A DNA stretch of 64,000 nucleotides from Dechloromonas sp. TW-R-39-2 (GTDB lineage Bacteria; Pseudomonadota; Gammaproteobacteria; Burkholderiales; Rhodocyclaceae), in the NCBI RefSeq assembly GCF_016864195.1, contig NZ_CP045202.1, forward strand, positions 1,829,001 to 1,893,000, given 5' to 3'. The notes under the pieces were generated by a model. That model had not been told where the DNA came from and made no database searches. It saw nothing but the letters and a program-made list of their open reading frames with translations. Made by a program: the position numbers and the translations under genes. This document shows positions 1 to 10,854 of the stretch, in pieces (position 1 is the first letter of the stretch; each line of letters starts with the position of its first letter).

Positions 1-2
1 TC

Positions 3-1799
3 CAGGGACAGACGGTCAATCCCGATACCTTTGTGCTGACGCTGCCCATGGTGCATGGTGCCGAAGCACTGGCCCTGCTGGTTTTTGTCGGTGGTTTGTC
101 CGCCGCCACGGGGATGGTAATTGTCGAAACCATCGCATTGTCGACCATGGTCTGCAACGATCTGGTTATGCCATGGTTGCTGCGGTCGACCCTGCTGAAA
201 GGGGAAAAAAGCCAGGATCTGTCCGGCTTGCTGATTGCCATTCGGCGAATTGCGATCGCCCTGATCCTGCTGCTGGGCTACATCTATTTTCGGGCTGCCG
301 GTGAAGCTTATGCGCTGGTCGGCATTGGTTTGATTTCATTTGCTGCCGTTGCCCAATTTGCGCCAGCCATGTTTGGCGGCATGTACTGGAAACAAGGGAC
401 GCGTTCAGGGGCCATCGCCGGTTTGCTCGGTGGCTTTGCAGTTTGGGCTTATACCCTGCTGCTTCCCTCATTTGCCAAATCGGGCTGGATCGCGCCGGAT
501 TTTGTCGAACACGGCTTGTTCGGGATCGCCGCATTGAAGGCCCAGGCTTTGTTCGGACTGGCCGGCATGGACGAGATATCCCACTGCCTGTGGTGGAGCT
601 TGCTGGTTAATACCGGGCTGTATGTTGCCGTTTCGCTGAGCTCGCGCCCGAGCGCCGTCGAAGCTCGGCAGGCTGAACGTTTTGTCGACGTCTTTCGCCA
701 TTCATCTCCGCTGGCTGAAGCGCGTTTGTGGCGTGGCCAGGTTTCGGTTGAAGGGCTGGTCGGATTGCTGGAGCGCTTTCTCGGGCCGCAACGTGCGCAT
801 CAACAACTGGATCTTTACGCTGCGTCGCGTGGTGTGCATGTCTGGCGCAAACTGCCAGCCGATGCCGATTTCGTTCGCTTTGCCGAAGCCGAGCTGGCGG
901 GAGCGATCGGCTCGGCCAGCGCCCGGGTGATGGTTGCTTCGGTGGCCCAGGAAGAAGATCTCGGTTTGGACGAAGTGCTCGATATTCTCGATGAAGCGTC
1001 GCAGGTGCGGGCTTATAGCCGCGATCTGGAAATCAAGCAGCAGGAGCTGGAAGCGGCGACTCAGGAATTGCGCGAGGCAAATGAGCGTTTGCGCGAGGTC
1101 GACCGCATGAAAGACGATTTCATTTCAACGGTGACCCACGAACTGCGTACGCCGCTGACGTCGATTCGCGCCTTGTCCGAAATGCTGCATGAAGATCCCA
1201 AGCTGGAACTGGTCGAACGGCGGCGCTTTCTCGGCATCATCGTTGGTGAAGCCGAGCGTCTGACACGGTTGATCAACCAGATCCTGGACATGGCCAAGAT
1301 GGAATCGGGACATGCCGAATGGACCAGCAGCGAGGTTGATGTTGGTGAAGTCGTGCGTGAAGCCATCGAGTCCCTGGGCCAGCTTTTCCGCGAAAAAGGC
1401 GTTCGTCTCGACAGCGAAATTGCGCCCGATATTCCGAGGGTGCTGGCGGATCGGGATCGCCTGACGCAAGTGATGATCAACCTGTTATCGAATGCGGTGA
1501 AATTCGTTCCCGGTCAACGTGGACAGGTTCGTGTCAGGGTGACGGCAGATACTGGGCAGGTTCGAGTCGAGGTTTCAGACAATGGCCCCGGCTTGACGGC
1601 TGACGAATGCAATGTCATTTTTGAAAAATTCCGTCAGGGTGGGAATACACTGACCGACAAGCCGCAGGGAACCGGGCTGGGTCTGCCGATCAGCCGGCAG
1701 ATCGTTGAATTTTTTGGTGGTAATCTCTGGGTTGAAAGCCGACCCGGAGACGGTGCGAATTTCATTTTCACGGTGCCCTTGCCGGCATCGGAGGAATAA
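3..1799 (+). CDS. Sodium:solute symporter-STAC-histidine kinase fusion (5' partial)
   Basis: The reading frame is open through the left edge, so the N-terminus is missing. What remains starts in the last membrane helices of a sodium:solute symporter (SSS) domain. A soluble STAC-like segment (roughly 690-1000), a short coiled coil and a HisKA domain follow; the phospho-acceptor His is the CAC at 1137 in THELRTPL. The HATPase domain shows NLLSNAVKF (N box), DNGPGL (G1), an F box and GTGLGL (G2), so the kinase looks complete. Architecture resembles CbrA/CrbS sensors, which couple a transporter-like module to a kinase, but no PAS domain is visible. It probably senses an external organic acid or amino acid and phosphorylates the receiver protein 17 bases downstream. 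The ligand is unknown. Confidence 0.9.
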   Translation, partial: QGQTVNPDTFVLTLPMVHGAEALALLVFVGGLSAATGMVIVETIALSTMVCNDLVMPWLLRSTLLKGEKSQDLSGLLIAIRRIAIALILLLGYIYFRAAGEAYALVGIGLISFAAVAQFAPAMFGGMYWKQGTRSGAIAGLLGGFAVWAYTLLLPSFAKSGWIAPDFVEHGLFGIAALKAQALFGLAGMDEISHCLWWSLLVNTGLYVAVSLSSRPSAVEARQAERFVDVFRHSSPLAEARLWRGQVSVEGLVGLLERFLGPQRAHQQLDLYAASRGVHVWRKLPADADFVRFAEAELAGAIGSASARVMVASVAQEEDLGLDEVLDILDEASQVRAYSRDLEIKQQELEAATQELREANERLREVDRMKDDFISTVTHELRTPLTSIRALSEMLHEDPKLELVERRRFLGIIVGEAERLTRLINQILDMAKMESGHAEWTSSEVDVGEVVREAIESLGQLFREKGVRLDSEIAPDIPRVLADRDRLTQVMINLLSNAVKFVPGQRGQVRVRVTADTGQVRVEVSDNGPGLTADECNVIFEKFRQGGNTLTDKPQGTGLGLPISRQIVEFFGGNLWVESRPGDGANFIFTVPLPASEE

Positions 1800-1816
1800 C
1801 AAGGGAGACAAAACGC

Positions 1817-2188
1817 ATGCCTAAAAAAATCCTTATCGTTGACGACGAACCCAATATTGTCATTTCGCTCGAATTCCTGATGAAAAAGGAAGGTTTCGAG
1901 GTAGCGGTCGCCGGTGATGGCGATGAAGCGCTGGGCAAGGTAGCCAGCTTTGCGCCGGATCTGATTTTGCTCGATGTCATGATGCCGAAAAAATCCGGAT
2001 TCGAAGTGTGTGAAGCTTTGCGCGCCGACCCTGCCCATGCCGCCTTGCAAATTGTCATGTTGACGGCCAAGGGGCGTGACACCGAAGTCGCCAAGGGCCT
2101 GGCCATCGGTGCCGATGCCTATGTCACCAAACCATTTTCGACCAAGGATCTGGTGGCGCGCGTCAAGAGCATGCTCGGCACCGCCTGA
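1817..2188 (+). CDS. Single-domain response regulator (CheY-like receiver)
   Basis: This 123-residue protein is one receiver domain and nothing else. The acidic pair sits in VDDEPN, the phospho-acceptor Asp in LLDVMMP, the Thr in MLTAKG and the Lys in TKPFS, so all the switch residues are present. It has no DNA-binding or enzymatic output domain and therefore probably acts by protein contact or in a phosphorelay. A good ribosome site (AGGGAG) precedes the ATG. Its position directly after the symporter-kinase fusion makes it the likely cognate partner; CrbR-type regulators of CrbS systems carry a LuxR output domain, which this one lacks. Confidence 0.93.
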   Translation: MPKKILIVDDEPNIVISLEFLMKKEGFEVAVAGDGDEALGKVASFAPDLILLDVMMPKKSGFEVCEALRADPAHAALQIVMLTAKGRDTEVAKGLAIGADAYVTKPFSTKDLVARVKSMLGTA

Positions 2189-2256
2189 GTTGCCCTGCGC
2201 CGGTCGACCACCGGAACAGGCCGAAATTCCGACGAATATTTTCCGGATTGGCTGTC

Positions 2257-4419
2257 ATGAAGGCTAAACACCGTTTTATCGCTGCTGTCGTCGTGCTCGG
2301 GTTGTTGATGACCGGGCCGTTTGTCGTCACTTCCTTGCTGGTCTGGCTCGACATGAAAGATGCCGAGCGGGAGTTACTGACCAACCTGCTGCTTTCCCGC
2401 CTGCCGGTTGGTACCGTGATGACGCTGTTCGGGTTCGTGCTGGGCGTGCTGGTCCTGCACAGGCTGTTCAAGCAGTACGTCGAAGGCCTGTTGCGCATGG
2501 CTGAAACACTGCGTTTGATGCTTGGCGCCAATCGCAATTTTCGCGTCACGCCGGAGGGGCCGCCGGAAGTCCAGCAGTTGGCTCACGCCGCCAATGACCT
2601 GGCGCAGCAGCGCGACGAGTTGATGGATGACGTTGACGCCCAGATTTCGCGTGCCAAAGCCTCGGTCGAGGAGGAGAAAAACCGCCTCGCCGCCTTGATG
2701 TCCGAACTGGCACAGGCCGTTGTCGTGTGCAATCTCGATGGCCGTATCCTGCTCTACAACAACCGGGCACGCCTGCAATTCAAGGCGCTGGCCCAAGGGC
2801 CGACATCGGTTGCTGGCGGTGCGTTGATCGGTCTCGGTCGCTCGATTTTTTCGATTCTCGAAAAGAACCAGGTCGAACATGCCCAGGAAGTCATCAGCCA
2901 GCGCTTGCACGGCGGCAAGACGGCGATGGCCAATTTCATCACCACAACGCGCGGTGGCCAGTTGCTGCGCGTCCAGATGGTTCCCGTGCTTGCCGCATCG
3001 GCAAGCGAAGGTGAACCCGGCATGTCCGGTTACGTGCTGACGGTTGAGAACATTACCCGCAGCATGGAGCAGGAAGCTAGGCGCGATCAGGCCCTGCATT
3101 CGCTGACCGAGGGCAGTCGTTCGGCGCTTGGCAGCATTCGTGCAGCGGTGACCAACATGATCGACTATCCGGACATGGAAACCGAGTTGCGCGAACGCTT
3201 TGTCCGGGTTGTCGACGATGAGGCTGCCAAGATGAGTCAGCGGCTTGATCTGACCATGGCCGAGTTCTCCGATTCGATGAAAACCCGCTGGCCGCTCGAA
3301 GATATTCTCGGTATCGATATCATTGCCGCAGCCCAGCGGCGGATCGAAGACAAACTCAAATTGCCGATCAAGACGGAAGAGCTTGACGATGCGCTCTGGA
3401 TCAAGGCCGATAGTTTTTCACTGGTTTTTGCGCTGCTTTCGCTGGCTTCCAAGTTGCAGGATCACTACGAGCCGCGCGAACTGCGCTTCCGTCTTTCATC
3501 CGAGGGGAAACTGGCTTACCTCGACCTGATCTGGGCCGGCCCGGCCATGTCGTCCGAAACTTTCTACACCTGGGAAATGGAGTCGATGCAGGTCGGTGAC
3601 GAGACTTCGCCATTGTCGCTGCGCGACGTGATCGACCGGCATGGCGGGGAAATCTGGTATCAGCGGGAAAAGGCCGCGCATCGGGCTTTCTTCCGTTTCG
3701 TGCTGCCGGTCGCCATTCCTGAGGCCGGGCTTGAAGAGGATGAGCGCAAGCGCGGTTCCGGACGGCCCGAATATTACGATTTCGATCTGTTCAATTTTCA
3801 GGACAAGACGGTTGATCTCGACCGCAAGCTGAGCGAGTTGACCTACACCGTTTTCGATACGGAAACGACCGGGCTGGAGCCGTCGAATGGCGATGAAATC
3901 ATCCAGATCGGTGCGGCGCGGATCGTCAATAATCGCCTGTTGCGCCAGGAAAACTTCGACCAGATCATCGATCCGGAGCGTCCGCTGCGTCCGGAGGGAA
4001 TTCCGATTCACGGCATCACCGAGGACATGGTGCGTGGCAAGCCGACTATTGACGGTGTTCTGCCGGCCTTCCACGAGTTTTGCGAAGATACCGTGCTGAT
4101 TGCCCACAATGCCGCTTTCGACATGCGCTTCCTGCAACTCAAGGAAGAACGTACCGGCCTGCGTTTCTCGCAACCGGTGCTGGATACGCTGCTGCTTTCG
4201 GCCGTCGTGCATCCGAATCAGGAATCGCACAAGCTCGATGTGATTCTTGAGCGTCTCGGCATTCATATCGAGACGCGCCACAACGCACTCGAAGATGCGC
4301 TGGCAACCGGGCAGGTCTTCCTCAAACTGGTGCCGCTGCTGGAACAGAAAGGTATCGTGACGGTTCGCCAGGCGCTCGAAGCCTCCGAAAAAACCTACTT
4401 TGCCCGGATCAAATACTGA
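2257..4419 (+). CDS. Membrane kinase-like (degenerate) protein fused to a DnaQ-type 3'-5' exonuclease
   Basis: This 720-residue fusion starts with two membrane helices (about residues 7-30 and 48-70). A HAMP-like/coiled-coil stretch and a PAS-like domain (about 145-270) follow, then a region shaped like HisKA-HATPase, then a C-terminal exonuclease (about 530-705). The kinase part is degenerate: aligned with the upstream kinase, Glu285 occupies the phospho-His position, and N-box and G-box motifs are not recognisable. The exonuclease keeps a complete DEDDh set: Asp534 and Glu536 in DTETTG, Asp622 in HNAAFD, His675 and Asp680. ATG 2257 is preferred over an in-frame TTG nine bases upstream. Expected output is nuclease activity tethered to a membrane sensor; its substrate (DNA, RNA or small oligonucleotides) cannot be read from the sequence. 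Confidence 0.85.
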   Translation: MKAKHRFIAAVVVLGLLMTGPFVVTSLLVWLDMKDAERELLTNLLLSRLPVGTVMTLFGFVLGVLVLHRLFKQYVEGLLRMAETLRLMLGANRNFRVTPEGPPEVQQLAHAANDLAQQRDELMDDVDAQISRAKASVEEEKNRLAALMSELAQAVVVCNLDGRILLYNNRARLQFKALAQGPTSVAGGALIGLGRSIFSILEKNQVEHAQEVISQRLHGGKTAMANFITTTRGGQLLRVQMVPVLAASASEGEPGMSGYVLTVENITRSMEQEARRDQALHSLTEGSRSALGSIRAAVTNMIDYPDMETELRERFVRVVDDEAAKMSQRLDLTMAEFSDSMKTRWPLEDILGIDIIAAAQRRIEDKLKLPIKTEELDDALWIKADSFSLVFALLSLASKLQDHYEPRELRFRLSSEGKLAYLDLIWAGPAMSSETFYTWEMESMQVGDETSPLSLRDVIDRHGGEIWYQREKAAHRAFFRFVLPVAIPEAGLEEDERKRGSGRPEYYDFDLFNFQDKTVDLDRKLSELTYTVFDTETTGLEPSNGDEIIQIGAARIVNNRLLRQENFDQIIDPERPLRPEGIPIHGITEDMVRGKPTIDGVLPAFHEFCEDTVLIAHNAAFDMRFLQLKEERTGLRFSQPVLDTLLLSAVVHPNQESHKLDVILERLGIHIETRHNALEDALATGQVFLKLVPLLEQKGIVTVRQALEASEKTYFARIKY

Positions 4420-4420
4420 G

Positions 4421-5482
4421 GTGAAAGACGTTCTCGAACAGTGGCTGCCTTGCCAGCAATTGACCCGCCTCGATCGCGATCTGGCCCTGCTCGACGATGT
4501 TTCCAAGGCCGCAGGGCTGGCCGGTGAGGTGCGACGGCTGTCCTCGGCGCTGGCGGCAAGCAGTGCCGGCGGCACACAACTGACGCGTATTATTTCGTGC
4601 CTGAATGACCGGTTGACCGCGAAAGTCGTTGCTTTGACCGCCCGGCATCACCGTTTGCCGCCGGTCGAATGGTGCTGGCTGGCGCTTGGTTCGGAGGGGC
4701 GCCAGGAACAGACTTTCCTGACCGATCAGGACAACGGCCTGATCTTCAATGCCACCAGCCAGCAAGAGGCGGATGCCTTGCGCGAGCTTTTTTTGCCGTT
4801 CGCCGAGGCTGTCAATCAGCGTCTGGCCGAGTGCGGTTTTCTGCTGTGTCCCGGGAAAATCATGGCTGGCAATCCGGCCTGGTGCCTGTCGCTGGATGAA
4901 TGGCGCGAGAAATTCATCGACTGGGTACGCCGCCCCGATCCGGCCGCCTTGCTCAACGCCAGTATTTTCTTCGACTTGCGACCGCTCTACGGCACGCTTG
5001 AACTGGGTGAATCGTTGCGGACGCTATTGCTCTCGCTGACTGTTGATACGCCAGCGTTTCTTCACCTGATGGCGGCCAATGCCTTGCATGCCGAAGTGCC
5101 GCTCAATTTTCGCGGCGAAGTGGCGCTTGAGGAACACGGTGAGGTCGATTTGAAAAAATTCGGCAGCCGGATTTTTGTCGATGCCGCACGAATTTTTGCG
5201 TTGGCTTGCGGCGAACGCTCGGTGAATAGCGCGGAGCGCCTGCGTCGGGCAGGGCCGGCCGCCGGTTTGCTCGAAAGTGAGATTGCTGCGGTCGACGCCG
5301 CTTTTTCGCATGTTTTACGCCTGCGCTTGTTGCAGCAAGCAGCCGATGCGGCAGGTGGCAAGGTTGTCGGTTATGGCCTGAGGCCGGCAAGCCTGCATGA
5401 AATGGACCGGGCCATCCTGCGTGAGTCGCTCAAGCTGGCGCGCCGCCTGCAGCAGCGTCTCAAGTTAAACTATGCACTCTAA
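4421..5482 (+). CDS. DUF294-type nucleotidyltransferase-like protein, lacking cNMP/CBS domains
   Basis: The start is GTG 4421, one base after the preceding stop, which suggests translational coupling. The 353-residue product has an N-terminal helical region, a nucleotidyltransferase-like DUF294 domain with GSEGR (Gly90) and the acidic pair D102/D104 in TDQDNG, and a C-terminal DUF294_C-like domain. It closely resembles the C-terminal half of the next gene product but lacks the cyclic-nucleotide and CBS modules. The family is related to GlnD-type nucleotidyltransferases and is annotated as putative signal-transduction protein; no substrate is established. It is probably a duplicated and shortened paralogue that partners with its larger neighbour. 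Confidence 0.85.
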   Translation: MKDVLEQWLPCQQLTRLDRDLALLDDVSKAAGLAGEVRRLSSALAASSAGGTQLTRIISCLNDRLTAKVVALTARHHRLPPVEWCWLALGSEGRQEQTFLTDQDNGLIFNATSQQEADALRELFLPFAEAVNQRLAECGFLLCPGKIMAGNPAWCLSLDEWREKFIDWVRRPDPAALLNASIFFDLRPLYGTLELGESLRTLLLSLTVDTPAFLHLMAANALHAEVPLNFRGEVALEEHGEVDLKKFGSRIFVDAARIFALACGERSVNSAERLRRAGPAAGLLESEIAAVDAAFSHVLRLRLLQQAADAAGGKVVGYGLRPASLHEMDRAILRESLKLARRLQQRLKLNYAL

Positions 5483-5499
5483 TAAGAATTGAGGTTGCC

Positions 5500-7467
5500 G
5501 TGAGAACGCAGCAAGCAGACGAACAAGTGGCCGTTGGCCAGGTGGAAGCCAATTTGCGTCAGGAAGGACGCCGTCGCGTCGCCGGGAATACCCTGGCTTT
5601 CCTCAAGAATCATGCGCCATTCAGCAAAATGGGCAGCGCCGCGCTGCAATTGTTTGCCGATCAGGCGCAACTGGCGTTTTATCCGGCAGGCAGCGAGATT
5701 GTCGGCCCGGATGCCGGTAATGTCCGTTACTTTTACCTGATCGAGTCCGGTCAGGTGCAGGCCCGCCAGGCCGGTGAGGTGACCGTTACGGAATATTCCA
5801 TTCTCAGCCTGCAAGCCGGGGAAAGTTTTCCGATCGGTGCGGTGACGGCAGGGCGCCCCTCGACCAATACCTACACCGCGCTGGAAGACACTTTCTGCTA
5901 CCAGTTGCCGGCTGAGTTCTTCATGCAATTGATGCAGACCAGCCCTGAGTTCAACCTGTTCTGCACGCGTTACATCGCCAGCTTGCTCGACCAGTCGCGC
6001 CAGCAGTTGCAACTGCAGTTTGCCCAGCGGGCCAACGAGCAACAAACGCTTAACTCGCCGCTGGCCGGCATTGGTTCACGTTCGCCGATTACCGTACCGC
6101 CCGATACGGCCTTGCGTACTGCGCTGGAGACGATGTCGCAGGCTGGTATCGGTTCCTTGGTGATCGCCGATGCGGACAGCAAGCCGGTCGGTGTGTTTAC
6201 CCGCACAGATCTGCTCGACCGTGTCGTGCTGGCCAATGTGCCGCTCGAAGCACCGATCAGCCAGGTCATGTCGGTCACGCCATTCATGCTTGAAGAACAT
6301 GCCACGGCCTACGATGCCATGCTGGCCATGGCAACGCACGGGATTCGCCATGTGCTGGTGACGGATGCCGAAGGCAAGCTGACCGGCGTTGTTTCCGAGC
6401 GTGATCTCTTTGCGCTGCAACGCGTCGGTCTGCGCCAGATTCGCCAGTCGATCGATGGTGCGCCCGACGTTACAAGCTTGCAGCAATCCGCCGCCGATGT
6501 GCGTCAGTTGGCGTTCAACATGCTGGCGCAGGGTGTGGGTGCCGAGCAATTGACCCAATTCATTTCGGCGCTCAACGATGCGCTGACCCGCCGCGTCATC
6601 CAGCTCAATCTTGGCAACCATAATTTCGATGGTATCGAATGGGCCTGGCTGGCGTTTGGTTCCGAAGGGCGTGACGAGCAAACTTTCAGCACCGACCAGG
6701 ATAACGGCATCGTTTTCGATCCGCCCGATGCTGACGCGGTCGACGCACTGAAACAGCGTTTTCTGGCGTTCGCCCGGGATGTGAACAACGACCTTGATCG
6801 CTGTGGTTTCCCGCTGTGCAAGGGCAACATCATGGCCAGCAACCCGCAATGGTGTCTGTCGCTCAACGAATGGAAGGCGCAGTTCAGCGACTGGGTGCGC
6901 ATGCCGCATCCGGACGCCTTGCTGAATGCGACGATCTTTTTCGATTTCCGGCCGCTCTACGGCCAGAGTGCGCTGGCCGAATCGATGCGCGTGCACTTGC
7001 TGGTCCAGACCGCAAGCAGCCCGATGTTCCTGCGTGCGATGGCCAAGAATGCACTCGATGTCGAGCCGCCGCTCGGCAAGTTGCGTGATTTCCTGACTGA
7101 TCTGGAGCCGGGGCAGCCGGGCAAGATCGATCTGAAGAAATACGGTTCGCGGATCTTTGTCGATGTCGCCCGGATTTACGCACTGGCCGCCGGCGTGCAC
7201 AACACCAATTCGATTCAGCGTCTGCGCCTGGCTTCCAAGCGCCTGTCGATTCGTGACGATGAGATCAATGCCGTGCTTGAAGGCCTCGACTTCATCCAGT
7301 TGCTGCGCCTGCAGCACCAGTATCTCGAAGGCGAGCCGGGTACCCAGGGCGATAACCTGATCAATCCGGATAGCTTGAACGAGCTGGATCGACGCATCCT
7401 CAAGGAATCTTTCCGCCAGGCTCGCAAGCTTCAGACGCGCTTGAAACTCGATTACCAGGTGAATTGA
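5500..7467 (+). CDS. cNMP-binding/CBS/DUF294 nucleotidyltransferase-like signalling protein
   Basis: This 655-residue protein carries, in order, a cyclic-nucleotide-binding-like domain (about 40-165), two CBS motifs (about 185-310), the DUF294 nucleotidyltransferase-like domain with GSEGR at 387 and acidic residues D399/D401, and a DUF294_C domain. This is the full architecture of the COG2905 signalling family. CBS pairs usually bind adenine nucleotides, so energy or second-messenger sensing with a nucleotidyl-transfer output is plausible. The GTG start follows the previous stop by 17 bases. The cluster context implies a role in controlling the symporter or the sensor; this is inference. Confidence 0.88.
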   Translation: MRTQQADEQVAVGQVEANLRQEGRRRVAGNTLAFLKNHAPFSKMGSAALQLFADQAQLAFYPAGSEIVGPDAGNVRYFYLIESGQVQARQAGEVTVTEYSILSLQAGESFPIGAVTAGRPSTNTYTALEDTFCYQLPAEFFMQLMQTSPEFNLFCTRYIASLLDQSRQQLQLQFAQRANEQQTLNSPLAGIGSRSPITVPPDTALRTALETMSQAGIGSLVIADADSKPVGVFTRTDLLDRVVLANVPLEAPISQVMSVTPFMLEEHATAYDAMLAMATHGIRHVLVTDAEGKLTGVVSERDLFALQRVGLRQIRQSIDGAPDVTSLQQSAADVRQLAFNMLAQGVGAEQLTQFISALNDALTRRVIQLNLGNHNFDGIEWAWLAFGSEGRDEQTFSTDQDNGIVFDPPDADAVDALKQRFLAFARDVNNDLDRCGFPLCKGNIMASNPQWCLSLNEWKAQFSDWVRMPHPDALLNATIFFDFRPLYGQSALAESMRVHLLVQTASSPMFLRAMAKNALDVEPPLGKLRDFLTDLEPGQPGKIDLKKYGSRIFVDVARIYALAAGVHNTNSIQRLRLASKRLSIRDDEINAVLEGLDFIQLLRLQHQYLEGEPGTQGDNLINPDSLNELDRRILKESFRQARKLQTRLKLDYQVN

Positions 7468-7469
7468 GC

Positions 7470-8165
7470 ATGATCAGCCTCAAGAAATTTCTTTTCAAGG
7501 CCGGTTCGCTCGAACATTTACCGGGAGATGTTCGTCTTTCGCTTGAAAAGTGGCGAGCCAGCAAGCCGCCCGAACTCGACGAGGTGCATTTTCATACGCG
7601 CTATATCGTCATCGATATCGTGACCAGCGGCACCAAACCGGAAAGCGACCGGCTCCTGAGCATTGCGGCCACCTGCGTGCGGCAGGGCGTGATCGTGCCG
7701 GAGGATTCCTTGTTTATCGATCTGACCAGCCTGGAGCAGCATCAGGCGGCTACGGAAGAGGGGCTGGAGCAGGGTGCTGCGGTCGACCGGCAGTTGATGG
7801 CTTTTTTGCAATTTGCCGCCAAGGCGCCGCTGGTCACTTATCACGTTTCCTACGTCGGCGGTTTCCTGCAGCAGTTGTTCAAGGAGCGCCTGGGCGTCGA
7901 TTTTCAGCCGCAATGGGTCGATATGGCCTGGTTGCTGCCGGCCATGTTTGCCGAAAAGAGCCACAGCATCATGCCGCTCGACCAGTGGCTGGATGCTTTC
8001 GGCTTTGCCTCCGGGGTCGGACGGCGCGATGCGATGGACAACACCTTGATGCTGGCGCGTCTCTTCCAGATGCTGCTTGTTCGGGCGGCGGACAAGGATG
8101 TCGACACGGCGTTGCGCCTGGTCGAAGAGTCGCGCGCCAGCAGTTTCCTGCGTCGTACCCATTAG
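7470..8165 (+). CDS. DnaQ-fold exonuclease-like protein with degenerate active site
   Basis: This 231-residue protein starts at ATG 7470, two bases after the previous stop. It aligns with DEDDh exonucleases, but the catalytic set is broken. Motif I reads DIVTSG (Asp49 kept, the usual Glu replaced by Val51). The motif II region reads TYHVSYVGG, without the Asp. Motif III reads RRDAMDNT, with Arg where the His is expected and one Asp kept. It is annotated as DNA polymerase III epsilon-like in related loci, but catalysis looks unlikely. It may be a binding or scaffold version that works with the intact exonuclease encoded at 2257-4419. Confidence 0.8.
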   Translation: MISLKKFLFKAGSLEHLPGDVRLSLEKWRASKPPELDEVHFHTRYIVIDIVTSGTKPESDRLLSIAATCVRQGVIVPEDSLFIDLTSLEQHQAATEEGLEQGAAVDRQLMAFLQFAAKAPLVTYHVSYVGGFLQQLFKERLGVDFQPQWVDMAWLLPAMFAEKSHSIMPLDQWLDAFGFASGVGRRDAMDNTLMLARLFQMLLVRAADKDVDTALRLVEESRASSFLRRTH

Positions 8166-8172
8166 CCGCCGA

Positions 8173-10212
8173 ATGTTCGGCCAGATGACCCGGTTGCAAC
8201 GTTACTACCTGAGTTACACAGGGGGTTTCCTGTTGTTTATCGGCGTGCTGGCCGTGCTTGAGCAGCACGGCATGCCACCGCGCTGGATCGGCTACGCCTT
8301 CCTGTTTTTCACCATCTTTCTCTATGCCGCCATCGGCATCATGAGCCGCACATCGGATGTTTCCGAGTATTACGTCGCGGGTCGCCGGGTGCCGGCTTTT
8401 TTCAATGGCATGGCAACGGGGGCCGACTGGATGAGCGCGGCCTCGTTCATGGGGCTGGCGGGTACCCTTTATCTGTCGGGACACCAGGGGCTGGCCTTCG
8501 TGATCGGCTGGACCGGCGGATTCGTGCTGGTTGCCTTGTTGCTGGCGCCGTATTTGCGACGTTTTGGCGAATACACCATTCCCGATTTTCTCGGGGCTCG
8601 CTACGGCGGCAATGCAATTCGCCTCGTCGCCGTGGGCGCGGCTATCCTGGCCTCCTTTGTGTACGTCGTAGCGCAGATTTATGGGGTCGGGGTAATCACC
8701 AGCCGGTTTGTCAGTCTGCAATTCGAAATCGGGGTTTTCCTCGGCCTGGCCGGCATCCTGGTTTGTTCGTTTCTGGGTGGCATGAAGGCGGTGACCTGGA
8801 CGCAAGTCGCCCAGTACGTCATTTTGATCATCGCTTACATTACCCCGGTAGCCATCCTTTCCTACAACGTCACCGGCAACCCGGTGCCGCAACTGGTTTA
8901 CGGACAAGTGCTGCAGGAGGTTACCCGCCTTGAACATCGCCTGTTCAATACGCCGGCGGAAATCGAGGTGCGCAACCTTTATCGCGAACGGGCCGATCTC
9001 TACGCCCAAAAGATCATGCAATTGCCGCAATCATTGACGCTTGAACGGGAGAAGTTCTCGGCCGAGATCAATCGTCTGAAAGCCAGCGATGCGCAGATGA
9101 AGGATATCGTCGCGGTCGAGCGCCTGCGCCGCGATTTGCCGCATGACCCGGATCAGGCGCGTTCGCAGTGGGAAAATGCGATGTTTTCGGCCGTCGACCG
9201 CGGCAAGATGCCGACGCATCATGCCGAGGCTTTTCCGGGGGAAAGTGATGCCGAACAGATGGCCATGCGGCTCAATTTCATGGCCCTCATCTTTTGCCTG
9301 ACAATCGGCACGGCGGCCTTGCCCCATATCCTGATGCGCTATTACACGACGCCAACCGTGCGGCAAGCGCGCGAGTCTGTTTTCTGGTCGCTCCTCTTTA
9401 TCTTGCTGCTTTACATTACCGCCCCGGCTTACGCCGTTTTCGCCAAGTTCGAAGTGTTCAGCCATCTGGCCGAAATTCCGCTGACCAAGTTGCCCGGCTG
9501 GGTTGCGGCCTGGAGCAAGGTCGGCCTGGTCAACATCGAAGATATCAACGGCGACGGCATTCTCCAGTTGGCAGAACTGTCGATGAATCCCGATGTGATC
9601 GTACTGGCCACCCCGGAAATTGCCGGCATGCCTTACGTGGTATCGGGTCTGGTTGCCGCCGGTGCGCTGGCCGCTGCCTTGTCGACGGCCGATGGCTTGC
9701 TGCTGACCATTACCGGCGCACTGTCGCACGACGTCTATTACCGCATCGTTCGGCCGGATGCTTCGACCCAGTTGCGTCTGGTCATCTCGAAGTCATTGCT
9801 GCTCGTTGTGGCTGTGCTGGCCGCAACGGTTGCGGCGCAAAAACCCGGAACGATCGTCTCGATGGTTGCCTGGGCGTTCTCGATTGCCGGGTCGGCATTT
9901 TTCCCCGCGCTCGTGCTCGGTATTTTCTGGAAAGGGGCAAGTCGGATCGGCGCCCTGGCCGGGATGGTGCTCGGTACCTTGTTGACGCTTTACTACATCG
10001 TTCGGGTTGAATTCAACGAAATTCCCTGGTTGGGGATTTCCAATCTGCACATGGAGCCGTGGCTGTATATCCAGTCAACCTCGGCCGGTGTTTTTGGCGT
10101 CATCGCCGGATTCATCACCATCATTCTGGTCAGTTTGCTGACCCCGTCAGGCGATAGCGCTTCCGCTTTCCTCAAGGGAATTCGGCGTACCGAACAGAGG
10201 AGTGGGCGTTGA
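8173..10212 (+). CDS. Sodium:solute symporter, large subunit (VC_2705/TIGR03648-like)
   Basis: ATG 8173 is preferred; the frame stays open upstream but overlaps the previous gene. The 679-residue product has the SSS fold (for example YYVAGRRVPAF and NGMATGADWMS in the N-terminal helices) and resembles the acetate permease ActP group. A long soluble insertion (about residues 240-360) breaks the helix pattern. A second loop (about 457-468) contains DINGDGILQLAE, which fits an EF-hand calcium loop. The small DUF4212 subunit overlaps its end, as is typical of this two-subunit subfamily. It probably imports acetate or another small organic acid with sodium; the substrate is not proven. Confidence 0.88.
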   Translation: MFGQMTRLQRYYLSYTGGFLLFIGVLAVLEQHGMPPRWIGYAFLFFTIFLYAAIGIMSRTSDVSEYYVAGRRVPAFFNGMATGADWMSAASFMGLAGTLYLSGHQGLAFVIGWTGGFVLVALLLAPYLRRFGEYTIPDFLGARYGGNAIRLVAVGAAILASFVYVVAQIYGVGVITSRFVSLQFEIGVFLGLAGILVCSFLGGMKAVTWTQVAQYVILIIAYITPVAILSYNVTGNPVPQLVYGQVLQEVTRLEHRLFNTPAEIEVRNLYRERADLYAQKIMQLPQSLTLEREKFSAEINRLKASDAQMKDIVAVERLRRDLPHDPDQARSQWENAMFSAVDRGKMPTHHAEAFPGESDAEQMAMRLNFMALIFCLTIGTAALPHILMRYYTTPTVRQARESVFWSLLFILLLYITAPAYAVFAKFEVFSHLAEIPLTKLPGWVAAWSKVGLVNIEDINGDGILQLAELSMNPDVIVLATPEIAGMPYVVSGLVAAGALAAALSTADGLLLTITGALSHDVYYRIVRPDASTQLRLVISKSLLLVVAVLAATVAAQKPGTIVSMVAWAFSIAGSAFFPALVLGIFWKGASRIGALAGMVLGTLLTLYYIVRVEFNEIPWLGISNLHMEPWLYIQSTSAGVFGVIAGFITIILVSLLTPSGDSASAFLKGIRRTEQRSGR

Positions 10213-10460
10213 AGCATCCCGATGAGGCTTACTGGCTCAAGACACGACGCCTGACATTCGCTTTGCTGTTTGTCTGGATTGTTGTTACGTTCGGCGCCAG
10301 CTGGTTTGCCCGGGAGCTCAACGAGTTTTCCCTGTTCGGTTTCCCTCTGGGCTTCTATATGGGGGCGCAAGGGGTGATTTTCATCTACCTCCTGATCATC
10401 TGGTTCTACAACCGCCAGATGCGTCGCCTGGAGCGCGAATTCGGGATTGATGACGAATAG
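10209..10460 (+). CDS. DUF4212 symporter small subunit (TIGR03647-like)
   Basis: This 83-residue protein has two membrane helices (about 16-37 and 48-67), a charged N-terminus and a basic/acidic tail. It starts with TTG overlapping the TGA of the large subunit, a layout that implies translational coupling. The pair of a large SSS protein with a DUF4212 protein is the known arrangement of this subfamily, in which the small protein is thought to be needed for assembly or activity. Length and topology match the family. Confidence 0.9.
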   Translation: MKHPDEAYWLKTRRLTFALLFVWIVVTFGASWFARELNEFSLFGFPLGFYMGAQGVIFIYLLIIWFYNRQMRRLEREFGIDDE

Positions 10461-10728
10461 CCTGCTTTTCCTGCTCTCGGCCGTCAGGGCCATTAGCGAG
10501 ATGCTGGGCCTGTGCTTGCTGGCACAGGCTGCCATGTATGTGCTACTAGGGCATCGGCGAGGGGTAAATCCAATTTACCGACTATTTTCGCTGTTGACCG
10601 CAGCACCCAGAAAAGTGGCCCGGATATTCCTGCCCCGGGCGCTGAGTGAACCCCTGGTCGCTGTTTTCTGCTTCCTGGTTTTATTCGCAATCTGGCTTGG
10701 ATTGGCCATTTTGCGAAAATTCATTTGA
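10450..10728 (+). CDS. Small conserved membrane protein of unknown function
   Basis: The 92-residue product starts at ATG 10450, inside the end of the DUF4212 gene (a TTG three bases upstream is an alternative). It has hydrophobic segments near residues 14-32 and 67-90, separated by a basic stretch. I do not recognise a family. The overlap and shared direction place it in the symporter operon, so an accessory membrane role is likely. Its final codons overlap the -35 element of the tRNA-Ser promoter. Confidence 0.7.
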   Translation: MTNSLLFLLSAVRAISEMLGLCLLAQAAMYVLLGHRRGVNPIYRLFSLLTAAPRKVARIFLPRALSEPLVAVFCFLVLFAIWLGLAILRKFI

Positions 10729-10763: not shown

Positions 10764-10854
10764 GGAGCGGTGGATGAGTGGTTTAAGTCGCACGCCTGGA
10801 AAGCGTGTGTGGGTTAATAGCCCACCGCGGGTTCGAATCCCGCCTGCTCCGCCA
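10764..10854 (+). tRNA. tRNA-Ser (anticodon GGA)
   Basis: This is a 91-base class II tRNA with encoded CCA. The acceptor strand GGAGCGG pairs with CTGCTCC through one G-T pair. The anticodon arm is CACGC-CTGGAAA-GCGTG with GGA at 10798-10800. The variable arm is long, as expected for serine, and the T arm contains GGTTCGAATCC. It decodes UCC and UCU. Confidence 0.97.

Follow-up and report, generated by a model that had tools for sequence, protein, structure and literature searches.

The stretch of DNA analysed here (the window; 64,000 nt, positions 1829001-1893000 of the single-contig, 3.46-Mb genome of Dechloromonas sp. TW-R-39-2) opens inside a run of genes in which nucleotidyltransferases of the DUF294 family and exonucleases of the DnaQ fold accompany acs and a sodium/solute symporter (Table 1). 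The closest matches of its proteins bear the names Azonexus and Dechloromonas. All genes of the run lie on the + strand, and acs and the start of the SLC5-type sensor kinase gene lie before the window edge. The acs product matched TIGR02188 at 963.7 bits (cut-off 725), and its gene is followed at a spacing of 367 bp by that of the kinase; inside the window no intergenic gap exceeds 68 bp, and some adjacent genes overlap or almost touch. The order is acs, SLC5-kinase, receiver, PK-EXO, DUF294, cNMP-CBS-DUF294, DnaQ-like, TIGR03648, TIGR03647 and a small protein for which neither Pfam nor NCBIfam gave a match. The original prediction, made from the window alone, had described a single co-directional run with tiny gaps or overlaps that includes a single-domain receiver and a DUF4212 subunit, and this was borne out, with the start moved to acs. 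Its view that intact and degenerate family members are paired in the cassette applies to kinase and exonuclease but not to DUF294, since both copies retain the nucleotidyltransferase motif.

Table 1. Features of the run and its downstream border (window coordinates).
Feature	Position	Strand	Basis or remark
SLC5-type sensor histidine kinase, C-terminal part	1..1799	+	Pfam HisKA and HATPase_c above cut-off; retains the His
Single-domain receiver, 123 aa	1817..2188	+	Pfam Response_reg, E 1.5e-29
PK-EXO: degenerate kinase core and C-terminal DEDDh exonuclease	2257..4419	+	RNase_T, Foldseek, residue check
DUF294 nucleotidyltransferase with DUF294_C, without sensor domains	4421..5482	+	Pfam, motif, model
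cNMP-CBS-DUF294-DUF294_C nucleotidyltransferase	5500..7467	+	Pfam
Stand-alone DnaQ-fold pseudo-exonuclease, 4/5 catalytic residues gone	7470..8165	+	Weak NCBIfam, residue check
Sodium/solute symporter TIGR03648 (VC_2705 family)	8173..10212	+	NCBIfam; start codon picked by eye
Symporter small subunit DUF4212/TIGR03647	10209..10460	+	Pfam, NCBIfam
Small protein, ~92 aa, hydrophobic by eye	10450..10728	+	Recurs beside TIGR03648/DUF4212 symporter
tRNA gene, directly past the end of the run	10764-10851		Rfam scan

Both DUF294 copies exceeded the cut-offs for PF03445 and PF10335 and carry the GS...DxD motif of the family (GSEGR..EQ...TDQDN in the short copy), and Pfam agreed with the prediction that the long copy has cNMP and CBS domains, which are of the nucleotide-binding kind, and that the short copy lacks them. 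The model of the short protein (predicted local distance difference test [pLDDT] score 94.4) has the GlnE/DrrA fold, and the likeness to these adenylyltransferases extends across the whole domain. A sequence search of the PDB with the long protein returned CBS matches and one cNMP-type match, none of them over the transferase part; no CD-NTase appeared among the fold matches listed for DUF294, an absence that does not exclude them. The transferase motif is kept in 207 of the 209 DUF294 domains surveyed. The ratio of nonsynonymous to synonymous substitution rates (dN/dS) was 0.19-0.21 for the short copy and 0.09-0.11 for the long copy, indicating that the short one is less constrained. The idea that the short copy is a recent duplicate was not supported by the tree, in which it belongs to an old clade of Azonexaceae and Sulfuritalea; Azonexus hydrophilus (L166) is without it.

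We examined the association of these genes in a sample of 299 genomes from the phylum; TIGR03648 exceeds its cut-off in 81 of them. A strong DUF294 match lies within 10 kb of at least 55 of the 82 listed TIGR03648 genes (27 have none among the matches listed), compared with a chance expectation of approximately 0.007 per TIGR03648 gene if a genome of 4 Mb is assumed. Because DUF294 matches were listed down to about 116 bits, the counts are lower bounds. Listed strong DUF294 matches occur in at least 107 of the 299 genomes, at least 65 of the 81 with TIGR03648 versus at least 42 of the 218 without it, a comparison not corrected for kinship. Of the 68 weaker symporters listed, at least 32 likewise have a DUF294 no more than 10 kb away. 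DUF294 domains were then scored in three sets of loci: those centred on symporters (L006-L101, with L086-L101 selected for DUF294), those chosen by eye away from the listed symporters (L102-L145, although L136 adjoins a symporter and weak symporter-like open reading frames [ORFs] occur in L123 and L139), and 80 named loci found via DUF294 (L146-L225). A DEDDh-type protein, encoded at most 4 kb away or as part of the same ORF, accompanies 65 of 74, 37 of 45 and 83 of 90 domains, respectively; no such partner was found for 5, 7 and 6, and there were no data for 4, 1 and 1. The exonuclease lies downstream on the same strand, with 400 bp or less between the domains, in 49, 28 and 70 cases, and five single ORFs (L075, L080, L081, L132 and L133) carry exonuclease, CBS and DUF294 in that order. 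Among the 25 symporter loci of L006-L085 without DUF294, one (L048) has a DEDDh-type protein. The association of DUF294 with the exonuclease and the symporter is real; the nonrandom co-occurrence that the original prediction had made a matter for a neighbourhood survey was found. In L200-L225, mostly from Pseudomonas, most loci have the DUF294-exonuclease pair without a symporter, and a receiver-containing ORF is often present upstream on the opposite strand.

The DUF294 domains without a partner nearby are of several kinds. Two (L086 and L089) have PK-EXO farther down the run, six (L036, L055, L107, L109, L119 and L145) have it elsewhere in the genome, and the genomes of L096, L102 and L108 gave no PK-EXO match, that of L108 carrying stand-alone DUF294-exonuclease pairs (L067 and L091). 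The other seven are in L122, L173, L178, L187, L206 and, twice, L196. By eye, the exonuclease-less DUF294 gene in L102, L119 and L145 lies just upstream of a dnaK-like gene.

The PK-EXO protein begins with two helices that look membrane-spanning, followed by a PAS-like part, a core resembling the dimerization and histidine phosphotransfer (DHp) and catalytic (CA) domains of kinases, and a C-terminal exonuclease. The last (residues 532-688, approximately 3850-4320) has an RNase_T domain with the five residues D-E-D-H-D of a DEDDh enzyme intact; because the model is poor in this part, the assignment relies on the sequence. The whole model has a pLDDT of 59, and residues 351-490 reach 71-89. Neither HisKA nor HATPase_c of Pfam was detected in the core up to an E value of 5, and Foldseek matched the model of the core to sensor kinases (E 1.9e-18 for an integrative model of WalK, 1e-13 and weaker for crystal structures). 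A Glu occupies the phospho-His position, so that the protein is not a functional sensor histidine kinase; both this Glu and the full DEDDh set had been noticed in the original prediction. Across 52 PK-EXO rows, which include that of the window and in which L229 and L234 are one gene, a residue is present in the phospho-acceptor column in 44 and it is His in none. The dN/dS of the protein is 0.07-0.10. In the Accumulibacter loci L244, L246 and L248 the phospho-His position of PK-EXO holds Asp, and the stretch read shows neither a receiver or an SLC5-kinase nor acs or DUF294.

By the rule used, a receiver is directly upstream in 33 of 42 full-core rows, counting the window; of the remaining nine, the upstream sequence is too short in L228, the rule overlooked a receiver-containing ORF in L135, L195 and L215, L237 is ambiguous, and the last four lack a receiver. 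In family f48, the core is missing from four rows (3-6 residues) and shortened in two more (177 and 190), and a receiver is directly upstream in none of these six, whereas L059 of the same family retains both. Four further rows truncated at contig ends were left out of these counts. We read this pattern as a sign that the dead core serves to dock a receiver.

The stand-alone DnaQ-like protein gave no Pfam match, and its DnaQ-type NCBIfam matches were weak and under the cut-off. Its active-site positions read D-V-V-R-N instead of D-E-D-H-D, in agreement with the predicted loss, and it is therefore no DEDDh enzyme. The same four residues are missing in all 120 homologues listed of the 416 matched, one of which is the window's own. 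The dN/dS of 0.13-0.26 (three relatives, dS ~0.9-1.5) indicates weaker constraint than on PK-EXO, and that the dead protein is retained; with the uniform loss in the homologues, it led us to reject recent decay of a gene copy. In the tree, 20 of 20 broken rows form one clade with a single origin (96/99), found in Azonexaceae, Accumulibacter and Zoogloeaceae-type genomes. Full-length PK-EXO is present in 14 of 14 genomes with the broken DnaQ, compared with 2 of the 20 whose stand-alone DnaQ is intact; these 34 genomes were picked from the 80 named loci, and five more broken cases were omitted (L146-L149, with PK-EXO in the locus, and L157). Given the single origin of the loss, this difference is suggestive only and its p-value is no independent evidence, and we did not adopt the presence of PK-EXO as the cause of the decay of DnaQ. 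Odd stand-alone exonuclease rows outside the broken clade are L040, L049, L068 and L131; that of L011 is cut, and that of L162, at 11549, resembles an Orn-type neighbour. PK-EXO is elsewhere in genomes G050 and G086 and was not found in G157 and G247; G157 has an intact stand-alone copy within the same locus (L068). In L131, DUF294 lacks both catalytic Asp residues and the adjoining exonuclease the last Asp, and the genome has no PK-EXO match.

Either half of the cassette is found without the other. The whole order of the window is repeated in L147, L148, L149 and L174 (Dechloromonas agitata), and in L146 from the kinase onward. In Accumulibacter (L160, L161, L164 and L192), acs, cNMP-CBS-DUF294, exonuclease, symporter and small subunit are together and PK-EXO is elsewhere. 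L215 has acs, SLC5-kinase, receiver, PK-EXO and a CBS-only DUF294 with no symporter; L190 has this set with the symporter pair downstream, and L195 has it with no acs called and a divergent symporter pair. In Azoarcus, Thauera and Aromatoleum (L236, L238-L242) the stretch read has acs, SLC5-kinase, receiver and PK-EXO but lacks DUF294, which lies with the dead DnaQ at a separate locus. The window joins both units, which gives it the paired look noted in the original prediction. The sensors of DUF294 vary with the partner: proteins with full cNMP and CBS domains stand beside a plain exonuclease in 147 cases and beside PK-EXO in 11, whereas CBS-only or sensorless ones stand beside a plain exonuclease in 5 cases and PK-EXO in 17, and are fused in 5 (partnerless, 19 full and 5 reduced). 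These counts are not corrected for kinship; the reduced forms are scattered over several separate places in the tree, arguing that sensor loss was not a single event.

The SLC5-kinase gene encodes 903 aa and begins 913 bp before the window, so that its first third is outside and the histidine kinase predicted to be complete at 3-1799 has its HisKA and HATPase_c domains there and is truncated by the window edge. The N-terminal part matched PDB chain 10ed_A, a "histidine kinase" (E 1.5e-71), and TIGR03648 far under the cut-off (E 4.4e-9). Thus, the predicted occurrence of an SSS fold in both kinase and transporter stands as an SLC5-like N-terminus, with Pfam SSF itself unmatched on that part, and the transporter-like N-terminus and the His place the protein among kinases of the CrbS/CbrA kind. 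The adjacent symporter subunits matched TIGR03648 at 750 bits (cut-off 321) and TIGR03647 at 99 bits (cut-off 26). The large subunit, ~679 aa, is longer than the family model (547 positions). Small proteins of ~90-130 aa without a family recur next to TIGR03648/DUF4212 in L055, L063, L065, L073-L075, L080, L081 and many named loci.

With moderate confidence, we propose that the cassette nucleotidylylates a protein reversibly and that its eraser is of a new kind. DUF294, with its GlnE/DrrA fold, would be the writer, transferring a nucleotide, most likely adenosine monophosphate, to a protein hydroxyl, probably that of a tyrosine; the DEDDh exonuclease would hydrolyse the phosphodiester and restore the protein. 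Candidate targets within the acetate pathway are the symporter, Acs and the SLC5-kinase. The writer of unit 1 would be gated by the cNMP and CBS domains that it carries itself. The writer of unit 2 would have shed its sensors, and the eraser would double as the sensor there: the SLC5-kinase would phosphorylate the lone receiver, which would dock on the pseudo-DHp of the membrane protein PK-EXO and set its exonuclease activity. PK-EXO would be the only intact eraser of the cassette in this lineage, and the stand-alone DnaQ would persist as a partner without catalytic activity, probably in a regulatory role. Under this explanation, held at the same confidence, the cassette would serve acetate-type uptake and activation and carry two nucleotidyltransferase-exonuclease units. 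Our assurance is somewhat lower for the broader proposal that reversible protein nucleotidylylation of this sort, with GlnE-fold DUF294 writers opposed by DnaQ-fold erasers under two-component control via a docking-only pseudokinase, is widespread.

Several observations weigh against this model. A common fold is not proof of function, and we infer the activities, the nucleotide and the target, as well as receiver docking and the role of the dead DnaQ, from gene content, association, intact or lost active sites and predicted fold, which the sequence gives directly. Eighteen DUF294 domains have no nearby exonuclease, and the stretch read lacks DUF294 for 13 of the 51 non-window PK-EXO rows, those of Azoarcus, Thauera and Aromatoleum among them, so that writer and eraser would act from different loci there. 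In the set chosen away from symporters, none of the 39 domains scored has acs nearby (flanks of ~5 kb) and 5 have at least one gene for Acs, symporter or SLC5-kinase nearby, to which the two weak symporter-like ORFs can be added; an acetate target is therefore not general. Four full-core PK-EXO rows (L231, L244, L246 and L248) have no receiver, the six reduced-core rows are all from one family and may reflect few events, and the association of the broken DnaQ with PK-EXO counts once because the residue loss has a single origin.

The original prediction was right in its observation; its interpretation, a second messenger made by DUF294 and degraded by DnaQ, found partial support and becomes a rival that we consider unlikely, although the pairing, the fusions and the intact sites fit a small nucleotide signal degraded by the DEDDh enzyme equally well. 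Very short RNAs are substrates for degradation by a DEDD oligoribonuclease (PMC6390093), and the cNMP and CBS families bind nucleotides (PMC5715377, PMC8402216). Extension of RNA 3' ends by DUF294 and trimming by the exonuclease, altering the translation or stability of acetate genes, would suit the usual action of DEDDh exonucleases on nucleic acid 3' ends and the RNA-modifying members among pol-beta-type transferases; however, the fold matches of DUF294 are protein and small-molecule adenylyltransferases and the exonuclease of unit 2 lies behind the two membrane-spanning-looking helices, and we think this quite improbable. Similarly improbable is that DUF294 proteins are non-catalytic sensors, the exonucleases belong to an unrelated process and clustering reflects common expression only. 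The window's stand-alone DnaQ is indeed dead, and deletion of the Pseudomonas homologue Pflu5625 gave no phenotype (PMC5715377), a result that also speaks against our model; yet the transferase motif is almost invariably intact, and exonuclease-DUF294 fusions and pairing away from symporters occur.

These results suggest that an acetate sensing and uptake cluster with probable writer and eraser enzymes forms a little-studied on/off switch. With the pairing, sensor swapping and fusion with DEDDh exonucleases, the annotations "nucleotidyltransferase" and "DNA polymerase III epsilon" give way to a hypothesis of writers and erasers that can be tested on proteins common among the sampled genomes, and such a model would offer the SLC5 kinase a post-translational route without a DNA-binding regulator.

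The logic of writer and eraser is that of GlnE, the glutamine synthetase adenylyltransferase/adenylyl-removing enzyme. DUF294 has the fold of both GlnE domains over its full length, but it is one transferase domain with DUF294_C, with or without cNMP and CBS, and the proposed eraser of the cassette has the unrelated DEDDh fold. DrrA/SidM of Legionella is a secreted effector with an adenylyltransferase domain, for which we know of no DEDDh partner. We take PA3232 and PA3233 to be DnaQ-like and DUF294 proteins. In one study, the PA3232-PA3235 cluster was up in growth on propionate, PA3233-PA3235 were down after propionate addition, and the symporter deletion grew normally on propionate (PMC9765439). 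The CBS protein PP_0354 is upregulated on acetate (PMC8402216), VC2704/VC2705 is termed a putative cation-acetate symporter (PMC7858070), and a DEDD enzyme cleaves an aryl ester of thymidine monophosphate (PMC6390093). A literature search of limited range, over partial texts, returned nothing on exonuclease pairing with DUF294 or on PK-EXO, no description of an exonuclease as an eraser and no tested activity for DUF294 proteins. Published TIGR03648/TIGR03647 loci have the same symporter and small subunit, but there the small-subunit gene comes first and a riboswitch candidate lies upstream (PMC6429828), whereas in the window the large-subunit gene comes first (8173-10460); the Rfam scan, whose coverage of that candidate is unchecked, gave two tRNAs only. 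The closest parallel is CrbS/CrbR (MxtR/ErdR) of Pseudomonas and Vibrio, in which an SLC5-type kinase likewise controls acs and the acetate symporter, and whose regulon likewise includes a cNMP/CBS/nucleotidyltransferase protein, Pflu5625, for which nucleotidylation was suggested (PMC5715377). MxtR/CrbS ends in a REC domain (PMC7918813), whereas Pfam detected none in the window kinase; and CrbR activates transcription (PMC5715377), whereas the receiver of the window, only 123 aa, is no CrbR-type regulator with a DNA-binding output domain and has PK-EXO as its neighbour.
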